DNA from: an uncultured Verrucomicrobiales bacterium
GTDB taxonomy: Bacteria > Verrucomicrobiota > Verrucomicrobiia > Verrucomicrobiales > DEV007
DNA: 58,478 nucleotides
Assembly: GCA_937922595.1 (NCBI GenBank)
Contig: CALAIY010000019.1
Span: forward strand, 1 to 58,478
Direction: 5' to 3'
Part shown: piece by piece, positions 1,337-4,776 of the stretch
Layout of the letters: every line of letters starts with the position of its first letter
Position numbering within the stretch: position 1 is the first letter of the stretch
The notes under the pieces: model-generated
Told to the model about the DNA's origin: nothing
Database searches by the model: none
The model's input: the letters and a program-made list of their open reading frames with translations, nothing else
Program-made: the position numbers and the translations under genes

Positions 1337-2743
1337 TCAGAAGCGTCCGCGATTTGCTTGGGGGGAGGTGGTCTTGGTGCCTTGGGCTTCGATGGTGCCG
1401 AAGCCTTGGCGGTCGAAGTTGGCGTTGTCGGTGAAGATGGAGACGTTTCCGGAGGCGCGGACGCGTGAGCCGGGGTCTACTTGGACGGTGCGGCCGGAGA
1501 GTTGGGTGGTGGGGGAATTGAGCTGGACGTCGCCGGAGAAGCGGAGGCGGCTGTCGCCGGTGGCGTAGAGGCGGATGAGGCGGGAGGCGTCGATGCGGCT
1601 GTTGTTGAGGACGAGGGCGTCGCGGCCGCCGGTGTTGAAGGTGCGGGCGCGGACGATATCAGCGGCGAGGACGGAGTTGTTGATTGTGAGGGTGCGTTGG
1701 AAGATCTCGCCGGCGTCGATGGAGATTCCGCCACGGCGGGTGAATTTGGAGCCTTCGATGGTGATGTTTTCGCCGAAGTTTGCGAGGGCGATGGCTTGGG
1801 CGAGGGCGTTGAGATCGGTGCTGTTGGTGACGCGGATGGGGGCGAGCTCTTTGCCGTCGGTGAGATTTCCACGGTCGGCGTTGTTGGCGATGGTGACGCC
1901 TTCGCGGGTGGCGGTGCTGCCTCCTGCGGGGGCGGCGATGCCATTTTCAGAGCGGGTACCGGTGTTTTCTCCGGAGACTTGGGATGGGATGATTGGGACT
2001 GTTTGCCTCGGACCGAGGCTGAGTGAGGAGGGTCAACAAGCTCCTCCGTGGCTCCCTCCAGCGGCACCGCTTCCCGCTGCGGCAGCGCTGCCTCCGCTGC
2101 CACTACCACCACTACCACCTCCACTGCTACTGCCGCTGCTATTTTGATTGGATGATGAGGAGGTGCTGCCACCGATTTCGGCGCTATCGCCATCGCCGTT
2201 GAGGGAGACGTTTGATTTTATGAGGAGGCCTTTCTCGATTTCGCGCTGTTGCTTGCGTAGTGCTCGTTCCATGGATCGTGCGGTGGGCAGCTCCGGGTTG
2301 GTTTTGGAGAGGAGGCGTGCGGTGGAGTGGATTGTTCCAAGATCAATTTCGATGGCGGCGGGGAGGTTGCGGGCACCCTCTTCAACGAGGATGAGCTGAC
2401 CTGCTTGGAGTTCGATAAATTGGCGGCTGTTTTGCGCGAGGCGCACATCAATGCGGCCTTCGAGGCAGGTGATTTTTGCGTTTCCGCGGGAGGTGGAGAC
2501 GAGTGCGGTGCCTTTACTGCGGAGGGTGACTGGGCCGACATCGAGCGCTTCGCTACGTCGGACGAGGCTGCGGCCACTGGCGACGAGTGCGGTGCCACCG
2601 AGGAGTGCTCCAGAGTCGATCTGGGCGCTATCCGCAAGGCGGAAAACTCCGCCGCCGCGGGTGGTGCGGTCGCTGGCGGCATCGGCAGTGAATACGGTGA
2701 ATGCCAGGGCGGCAGTGATGGTGGTGGTGAGGATCGAGCGCAT
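1337..2743 (-). CDS. Secreted FecR-domain protein continuing through an in-frame UGA into a repeat-like domain; candidate selenoprotein
   Basis: A signal peptide (residues 1-22) leads into a FecR-type domain (about 30-150) and a Gly/Ser-rich linker ending GGSHGGAC at residue 236. A TGA at 2033-2035 (codon 237) then interrupts the frame. The same frame stays open for 231 more codons to a TGA at 1337, with the C-ending codons typical of real genes here (gcc, atc, aac, ctc). That tail has repeated strand-like segments such as DALVLNNSRIDASRLIRLYA, resembling surface beta-helix repeats. It has no ATG, GTG or TTG near its beginning, so independent translation is unlikely. A hairpin follows the TGA (2005-2019). 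If decoded as Sec, the protein is 468 residues with a vicinal Cys-Sec pair on a flexible linker. Alternatives are a 236-residue FecR protein (2033-2743) with a decayed tail, or a sequence error. FecR identity is secure; decoding is not. Confidence 0.6.
2005..2019 (-). promoter_or_regulatory. Candidate bacterial SECIS hairpin downstream of the UGA at 2033
   Basis: On the minus strand GCCTCG-GTC-CGAGGC is a perfect 6-bp stem with a GUC loop. The loop begins 19 nt after the UGA at 2033-2035. The bacterial SECIS model as I know it asks for a stem-loop whose apical loop lies about 16-37 nt from the UGA and has a G in its first two bases; both hold. No T-run follows and the frame continues, so it is not an ordinary terminator. 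Confidence 0.55.
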
Positions 2744-2768: not shown

Positions 2769-3725
2769 CTAAAAACGGAAGGAGGCGCGGAGGGTCGGCC
2801 CGGCGGTGGTGTTTTCGTAGTCGAAGGTGTCGAGATTGGATTCGCTGATGAAGTAGGCGAGTGAGCCTCCGATGCTGAACCATTCGCGGGGGACGTAATC
2901 GAGGGCGACGGATGCAGAGTAGTTTAGATCATCGTGTTGGTCGTAGTGGAGAAGGCTGACTCCGGCGGTAGCGGTGGCTTTCCAGCGGGGGGCGAGCTTT
3001 ATTGTGTAGACGCCGATTAGGCTGTATTCGTCGCGTTGCGCTTCTTCGGCGCTGGCGGAAAGACTGACGTCGGCATTGGCTCCGATGAATAGGGTGCTGT
3101 TTCTCCCGAGGGTGAAAAGTCGGCTGAGGCCTGCGGTGGCGCTGAAGTTGGCGAAGAGTTCCTCGCCGAAATCGTCGGGGAGCGAGAGCCTGTAGTAACG
3201 TGCTCCGAGCGTGGCGACGAATTGGCCGGGGAGGAGCTGGATGAAATTGGCGGAGGTATCGACTCGGTCGAAATCAAGGATGTCGAGTTCACGGTAGCGG
3301 AGCGTCTGTTCCTGGACGCTGAGACTGATGTATGAACTGGTGAGAAGCGGGGCGGCGGTGAGGCTCGAAAGGGGGACTGTGGCGGCTAGCGAAAGGTTCT
3401 GGGAAAATATCTCGTCTTCTTCATTCATGACCGGGCTGAGCGCGGCATTCGTCTGGTAGGTGTAGCTGGCGGAGGCATTGATTGAAAAAAATTGCCAGGG
3501 GTCGTTCCGGACGAGCACTTCCTGCTCGCCGTAGGCGGATTGGTTTGCGGATGAGGAGGATTCTGCAGCTTGGGAGGCGACCTTCGCCACGGCGGGGAGA
3601 GTTTGCTCGGAGAGCGGACGGATGTTTTGAATTCCGGTGTCCCGACGTTGGAGTGAGGAATCTTGGGCGTTGGCACCGATCATCGCTGATGCGAGAAGAA
3701 GGGCGGAGAGGATGGGGGATCGCAT
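2769..3725 (-). CDS. Outer-membrane beta-barrel protein
   Basis: A 318-residue protein with a signal peptide (MRSPILSALLLASAMIGANA). Beyond about residue 85 it consists mainly of alternating amphipathic strands and ends in the aromatic strand LRASFRF, typical of barrels inserted by the BAM machinery. The frame is open to 3875, but upstream of the chosen ATG it only overlaps the preceding gene, so I start at 3725. It sits between the thioredoxin-like gene (9-nt gap) and the FecR gene (25-nt gap), so the three probably form one transcript. A surface or porin role is likely; the substrate is unknown. Confidence 0.8.
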   Translation of the reverse strand: MRSPILSALLLASAMIGANAQDSSLQRRDTGIQNIRPLSEQTLPAVAKVASQAAESSSSANQSAYGEQEVLVRNDPWQFFSINASASYTYQTNAALSPVMNEEDEIFSQNLSLAATVPLSSLTAAPLLTSSYISLSVQEQTLRYRELDILDFDRVDTSANFIQLLPGQFVATLGARYYRLSLPDDFGEELFANFSATAGLSRLFTLGRNSTLFIGANADVSLSASAEEAQRDEYSLIGVYTIKLAPRWKATATAGVSLLHYDQHDDLNYSASVALDYVPREWFSIGGSLAYFISESNLDTFDYENTTAGPTLRASFRF

Positions 3726-3735
3726 GAGGGAGGAT

Positions 3736-4776
3736 TTAAAATTCGAATTCGGGTAATTCGACGCGGACCCGGAAAAATTGTGCGGGAGGGGAGCCGTCTG
3801 TTGCGACGGCAGCATCGCGGCGCACGGTGACGAATTCGGTGCCGGTGCCGTCGTAAGGATCGGTGACGTCGACATCTAAGAAGCCTTCAGCATTCCAAGT
3901 AACCCCATCCGATGACATTTCGGGGATGTATTTGAGACGCTGGCCTTCGCCGCCGAGCCTGCGGCGATAGGTAATGGAGGGAAAATTGTCTTTTCCGATT
4001 TCCATGATTTCCATTCGGGGCTGTGCCGATGGGAGGTATCGCTTGGGGTCTCCGGAAAACGCGTAGCTCAATAAAAGCGGCTGGTTGGATTCGGTGATAT
4101 CGGTGGAGAACACATCGATGTTTTCGACGAAATCTAATTCCCAAGGATCGGGGATGCCGTCGATATCCGAGTCCGAGACGGCGGAGCGGGTTGTTTCCAG
4201 GATGAAGTTTTTGAAAATTTCGCGGTTGCTGGCGTTATCGAGGCCCTTTTTCAGGAGGTTTTGAAATGCGAGGAAACGGTTGTTTTGGTCTACGATGAGG
4301 AGGTCGCGTTGTTGGATGCTGTTGCCTTCGATAACGTTGCCTTCGCCGTCGATTTTCGTAGGGATGATCCAGCTAGTGTAGGGTTCGTTGCCAGGATCTG
4401 GGATAGGAGAGCCGTTGGCGTCGAATTTCCCTTCGCGCATCCATGGCAGTCTGCTGTTGCGAAACATTTGGTCATTTAGGGTTTCTCCGCGGCGGTGGAT
4501 TCCGATTATCTCGACGGGAATCGGAGTGTCCGCTGTATCGAACTCATCCTGAAGTTGTTCCAAGATCTCAAACTGAGATCGGCAGATGGGTCACCATTCG
4601 GCACCGAAATAGACGACCGTGATGCGCTGGAGATAGTCTCGTGGTGAAATTTCCTGTCCGAAGCGCTCAGAATTTGGGGAGAGGTCCTCGCTGGTGAATG
4701 CCGGTTGAAGAAAGCTCTGGGAAAAAGCGGTAGAAGCTGTGGCAAGAAGGACAGAGACGGTGAGGGGGTGGATCAT
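3736..4776 (-). CDS. Secreted thioredoxin-like selenoprotein (UPIC redox motif)
   Basis: A signal peptide (about residues 1-19) is followed by a thioredoxin-type beta strand VVYFGAEW. An in-frame TGA comes next (4591-4593, codon 62), then PICRSQFEILEQL. The context is the classic FxAxWCxxC redox site with the first, nucleophilic cysteine replaced by UGA (U62-P-I-C65). Both sides are one frame: 61 codons before and 284 after, 346 residues in all. A perfect hairpin lies 17 nt after the UGA (4560-4582). I read this as selenocysteine. The C-terminal half has a DSDIDGIPDPWE calcium-loop-like segment and a tail (PAQFFRVRVEL) of the kind seen on verrucomicrobial secreted proteins. It is the first gene of a minus-strand operon with the beta-barrel and FecR genes. 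No Sec machinery lies in this window. A Cys-to-stop mutation or sequencing error is the alternative. Confidence 0.82.
4560..4582 (-). promoter_or_regulatory. Candidate bacterial SECIS hairpin downstream of the UGA at 4591
   Basis: On the minus strand GATCTCA-GTT-TGAGATC is a perfect 7-bp stem with a GUU loop. Two further C-G pairs form at its base across a 2-nt TT bulge. Ten nucleotides separate the UGA from the inner stem and 17 separate it from the loop, whose first base is G. Position, size and loop fit the bacterial SECIS model that SelB recognises. Confidence 0.75.

Follow-up and report, generated by a model that had tools for sequence, protein, structure and literature searches.

A predicted selenocysteine-containing redoxin with a UPIC site in an uncultured Verrucomicrobiales bacterium

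Related families

Selenocysteine (Sec) forms are known for the redoxin, thioredoxin and thiol-disulfide isomerase families (PMC13188914, Table 1). Verrucomicrobiota are without mention in this and a second review of prokaryotic selenoproteomes (PMC9312934). The closest catalogued family is NF053656 (redoxin_TUGYCR, 'TUGYCR motif thioredoxin fold (seleno)protein'), and searching the literature for TUGYCR gave no publication in which it is named. Here we describe a gene that resembles this family, located in a 58,478-nucleotide stretch of DNA, referred to as the window, which comprises contig CALAIY010000019.1 of the draft assembly GCA_937922595.1.

The window protein scores 111.8 bits against NF053656 (cut-off 100), and each of the 12 aligned members hits this model with E ≤ 1e-5; hence NCBI curators had recognised the family before. 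The protein shares with NF053656 the Sec/Cys position and the C[RQ]xQF motif, but differs in having EWUPICR for TUGYCR and an insert near residues 115–155, and its best-matching stretch covers only profile positions 2–93 of 146. The literal TUGYCR motif is absent from the window protein, which reads WUPICR at this site. TUGYCR appears to be no strict requirement for membership, because the site varies among members (USTCQ, UAYCR, UPYCQ, CPTCQ) and the Cys form CPTCQ also scores over the cut-off. By sequence, the window gene is a new, divergent UPIC member of a catalogued family and does not define a new one. What is new here is this UPIC member, a conserved pair of neighbouring genes, and two more selenoprotein candidates in the same genome.

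Two other groups are also similar. TlpA/ResA/DsbE oxidoreductases share an exported redoxin fold with a UxxC site, but the window protein has an additional Asp-rich linker and C-terminal beta domain and falls under the curated cut-off of all Pfam redoxin models. The Sco1/SenC copper proteins provide the best structural matches, but their sequence match is sub-threshold and the window protein has Sec in place of the first Cys. We estimate a probability of about 95% that this is a genuine selenoprotein gene, in which UGA-62 would be read as Sec in an exported redoxin.

The gene, its UGA codon and the RNA hairpin

The features of the gene that bear on UGA decoding are as follows.

3736..4776, minus strand: putative selenoprotein gene, 346 codons plus TAA, with ATG at 4776..4774 (single-TGA frame, coding signal, full-length homologues)
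4591..4593, minus strand: predicted Sec codon UGA, residue 62 (U62-P-I-C65; homologues have TGA here, or Cys in three cases)
4582..4584, minus strand: codon for C65, presumed to be the resolving cysteine (column invariant in the 12-protein alignment)
4564..4580, minus strand: bSECIS hairpin with a 7-bp stem and GUU loop (folding, covariation, bSECIS criteria of PMC13188914)

The initial annotation reported one continuous 346-codon frame containing FGAEW-UGA-PIC, with its strand unstated. This frame is present on the minus strand (4776..3736), where translation around codon 62 gives FGAEW-U-PICRSQF. Also as anticipated, standard gene callers split the gene. ORF calling with table 11 returns 3736..4563 alone (275 codons), lacking codons 1–62 and thereby the active site, meaning that the function is lost in ordinary annotation. 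The same call is what would be expected if the TGA were a plain stop, with a nonsense mutation having left the 275-codon ORF as a relic or internal restart. However, the codon-usage signal is similar on both flanks of the TGA, at 0.335 and 0.408 bits/codon in the same frame, and is negative in the remaining frames. With the homologue and hairpin evidence below also opposing it, a stop or pseudogene is highly improbable.

The bSECIS model defines a loop of 3–9 nt with G in its first two positions, a stem of 4–16 bp, a distance of 16–37 nt from the UGA and an MFE ≤ -7.5 (PMC13188914). The window hairpin lies within every one of these limits (GUU loop, 7 bp, 17 nt, MFE -8.4 kcal/mol). Its stem, GAUCUCA/UGAGAUC, starts 10 nt past the UGA and pairs 4580-4574 with 4570-4564 around the loop at 4573-4571, and outside it, beyond a UU bulge, 4582-4581 form two more C-G pairs with 4561-4560. 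The perfect 7-bp hairpin, the loop 17 nt past the UGA and the two added C-G pairs described initially are thus all in the sequence. Taken singly, however, this hairpin is within chance and is weak evidence. A comparable hairpin, defined as a stem of at least 7 bp whose loop has G at position one or two, within 14–25 nt of the TGA, accompanies 77 of the 1912 TGAs in the window (~4%). Given this rate and a folding z-score of -1.1, we discounted the energy of the hairpin on its own.

Comparison between homologues is more informative. In 20 distinct TGA-bearing sequences, with the stem taken at the identical place in each, 92.9% of stem cells are paired versus 68.2% in shuffled and 28–44% in slid controls. 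Double-sided stem changes number 36 against a shuffled mean of 12.7, and the covariation score is 0.652 against 0.178; an earlier version with 11 sequences agrees. The codons flanking the QF motif co-vary with pairing kept, for example GCC with GGC, TCG with GCG, and TCT with GAG. As both position and pairing are maintained across these 20 sequences, the hairpin is above chance, and its covariation is difficult to reconcile with a nonsense mutation. In the three Cys homologues the hairpin is absent or weak, with 2, 5 and 5 of the 7 stem pairs left and folding energies of -5.7, -4.7 and -1.9 kcal/mol, compared to about -6 to -17 for the TGA forms. The Pirellulaceae Cys homologue additionally lacks the loop G.

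Homologues and Sec machinery

Alignment of homologues at codon 62, proposed initially as a check for Cys or UGA, returned one or the other. In a set of 57 related genomes, which includes the window's own, TGA occupies the same codon (UxxC) in 10 homologous loci from nine other genomes, and a single homologue has Cys (L024, CPTC, in genome G056). Contigs of named genomes gave no match when searched with the window protein alone, whereas the family alignment as query recovered 20 family loci, 17 with TGA and three with Cys. Eight of these 17 TGA loci are the same as those in the relatives set and nine are additional. All 17 are in metagenome-assembled genomes (MAGs) labelled Verrucomicrobiota or groups within it. 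The Cys forms, with L024 counted among the three, are in MAGs labelled Akkermansia, Pirellulaceae and Myxococcales; the last two (L140 and L144, respectively) lie beyond Verrucomicrobiota. A phylum-wide scan with NF053656 found, besides the window gene, just distant TGA-free redoxins below the cut-off.

The TGA is retained among divergent homologues, at about 26–40% identity, which is not expected of a pseudogene. The three Cys homologues could be taken to mean that the real codon is TGC or TGT and that TGA is a sequencing or assembly error. Such an error would need to recur at one codon across independent assemblies and to coincide with a SECIS hairpin that the Cys forms lack or retain only weakly, so we give this explanation almost no weight.

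The distribution of the TGA form follows that of the Sec machinery, again in conflict with a plain stop. It is confined to the 27 of 57 genomes with Sec machinery, which is found in 10/10 TGA-form genomes (own included) vs 17/47 others (Fisher P = 2e-4, in a test that takes genomes as independent when related genomes are not). Genome G056, the sole Cys-form genome examined for machinery, has neither selB nor tRNA-Sec over cut-off.

The window's own assembly is a draft of 3.27 Mb in 174 contigs, estimated as 92.9% complete. It encodes a tRNA-Sec (60.5 bits against a gathering cut-off of 47; ARAGORN calls it SeC(tca)), SelA (483.5 bits, cut-off 267.9) and SelD (255.7 bits, cut-off 125). The tRNA-Sec gene (L012:1498-1594, minus strand) is flanked by an integrase-like gene and nusA-infB, and SelD carries an NADH-dehydrogenase-like FAD domain fused at its N-terminus, giving a 772 aa product (L057:945-3263, plus strand). 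Directly 3' of selA are genes resembling, by eye, a PhnD/PhnC/PhnE ABC transporter (L056:5594-8978, plus strand), a candidate selenium oxyanion importer.

Of the four genes selA, selB, selD and selC for which a genome search had been suggested, only selB was not found in this 92.9%-complete assembly, using TIGR00475 and then a profile of nine relatives' SelB. The matches were to other GTPases: the best (C146) is EF-Tu judging by length and score, and those assigned by ORF or gene context are IF-2 (C86), a CysN-like GTPase (C76) and LepA (C70). That selB was not found is in keeping with a plain stop. Among the 57 genomes, selB is over cut-off in 22 and a clear tRNA-Sec (at least 52 bits) is present in 23, with both in 18 and one only in 9, the latter being consistent with draft gaps. 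Four other tRNA-Sec genomes in the set (70–85% complete) are also without a SelB match over cut-off. Considering these genomes and the fragmented draft, the missing selB is likely, if unproven, to be an assembly gap. Decoding by tRNA-Sec, SelA and SelD without a recognisable SelB, with some other factor delivering Sec-tRNA, is very unlikely.

Together, the UGA or Cys at codon 62 of homologues, the presence of selC, selA and selD, the hairpin covariation, the co-occurrence with Sec machinery and the weak hairpin of Cys forms favour the secreted selenoprotein with a U-P-I-C site that the initial annotation had proposed.

Fold, neighbours and further candidates

The remaining features are the parts of the protein and the two genes downstream.

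4717..4776, minus strand: probable N-terminal secretion signal, ~20 residues, boundary inferred (hydrophobic stretch ending AFSQS)
4183..4704, minus strand: redoxin/thioredoxin-fold domain, residues 25-198 (NF053656, sub-threshold AhpC-TSA, AlphaFold, Foldseek)
4138..4179, minus strand: Asp-rich linker, residues 200-213, around DSDIDGIPDPWE (conserved columns)
3739..4077, minus strand: C-terminal beta domain, residues ~234-346 (AlphaFold; mainly strands, few short helices)
2769..3725, minus strand: downstream neighbour, secreted and putatively outer-membrane-barrel-like by eye (L024 counterpart)
2033..2743, minus strand: second neighbour, FecR-like by eye (L024 counterpart)

An AlphaFold model built from the 12-sequence alignment (pLDDT 85.8) predicts a redoxin domain, the Asp-rich linker and a mostly beta C-terminal domain, with pLDDT < 50 over the signal region (residues 1-19). 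The NF053656 match spans residues 25-115. All Pfam redoxin/thioredoxin models are under their gathering cut-off, the best being AhpC-TSA at 25.4 vs 26. In the linker D202, D204, D206, D210, W212 and E213 are nearly invariant across the 12-protein alignment, and it may possibly bind Ca. The C-terminal domain also matches many other ORFs in relatives. At the site of the cis-proline loop of thioredoxins, the family appears by eye from the alignment to show (Y)RD[VL] (residues 153-161, window 4294-4320, minus strand).

Foldseek matches to the model are led by Sco1, thioredoxin, ResA and DsbE-type chains with E of about 1e-6 to 1e-5, the value being about 1e-6 for Sco1 and thioredoxin chains and slightly higher for ResA; TlpA is likewise among the best matches. 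The product is thus predicted to be an exported, thioredoxin-like redoxin with a TlpA/ResA/Sco fold. Human SCO1 ranks first and a number of Sco proteins score highly, raising the alternative of a true selenoprotein with a metal partner, a Sco-like copper-binding or assembly protein and not a disulfide reductase or peroxidase. However, comparable scores are obtained for ResA, TlpA, DsbE, GPX and peroxiredoxin chains, and no Sco-type distal His ligand was noticed, making a copper role unlikely.

The sequence evidence consists of the conservation of the UGA and of the RNA hairpin, the Sec machinery apart from selB, and the predicted fold; we infer Sec insertion itself, the redox chemistry, where the protein is located and which partners it has. 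In the proposed mechanism, SelA would charge tRNA-Sec using selenium supplied by SelD, SelB would bring it to the ribosome, and UGA-62 would be decoded as Sec under the direction of the bSECIS hairpin. The product would be exported and adopt a TlpA/ResA/Sco-like redoxin fold. In its U-x-x-C site, Sec62 would be the attacking nucleophile and Cys65 would resolve the intermediate as a selenenylsulfide. It most likely acts in the cell envelope as a thiol:disulfide (or peroxide) oxidoreductase, and may do so together with the barrel-like and FecR-like proteins encoded alongside.

The products of both neighbouring genes have no Pfam match. The first (2769..3725) is 30% identical (E 1e-39) to its counterpart downstream of the L024 Cys form, and the second (2033..2743) matches the next gene there (E 6e-10). 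L024 belongs to the taxonomic order of the window genome but to a different family. Since both neighbours have counterparts beside the Cys form, conservation of this arrangement suggests that the gene and its neighbours share an envelope function, in which the neighbours' individual roles are presumptive. The locus appears to represent a selenium-based envelope redox protein found mainly in Verrucomicrobiota. Cys versions occur beyond Verrucomicrobiota and in one relative without selB or tRNA-Sec over cut-off, and their existence beside the Sec family provides a Sec/Cys pair for studying selenium retention.

Elsewhere in the genome, a TlpA/ResA-like secreted protein has an in-frame TGA in FWGTWUAGC (L004:802-1875, plus strand), and its match to NF041054 (WAxxUGC) is far under that model's cut-off. 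A second gene with an in-frame TGA could reflect genome-wide reassignment of UGA (table 4 or 25-like), or readthrough as Trp or another residue without a SECIS. Yet the in-frame TGAs found in conserved genes are close to a Cys within a redox-type motif (UPIC, UAGC or UC), Cys stands at the window gene's codon in relatives, the genome encodes tRNA-Sec, SelA and SelD, and the long ORFs of the window are closed under table 11. Reassignment is therefore scarcely credible, and reading of UGA as Sec is preferred.

Directly 3' of the TlpA/ResA-like gene is one for a secreted FG-GAP repeat protein with an in-frame TGA in VWUCHSSTPQFVD (L004:1897-3168, plus strand; same gene in L106). The protein has no NCBIfam match over cut-off and PMC13188914 contains no FG-GAP entry, so with its UC motif it may represent an uncatalogued selenoprotein family. 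In its homologues L107 and L108 the corresponding codon is likewise TGA (VWUCTSSTPQ), and a short stretch of self-complementary sequence, CCACAGTTTGTGG, lies 3' of the TGA in 2/3 loci (own and L108).
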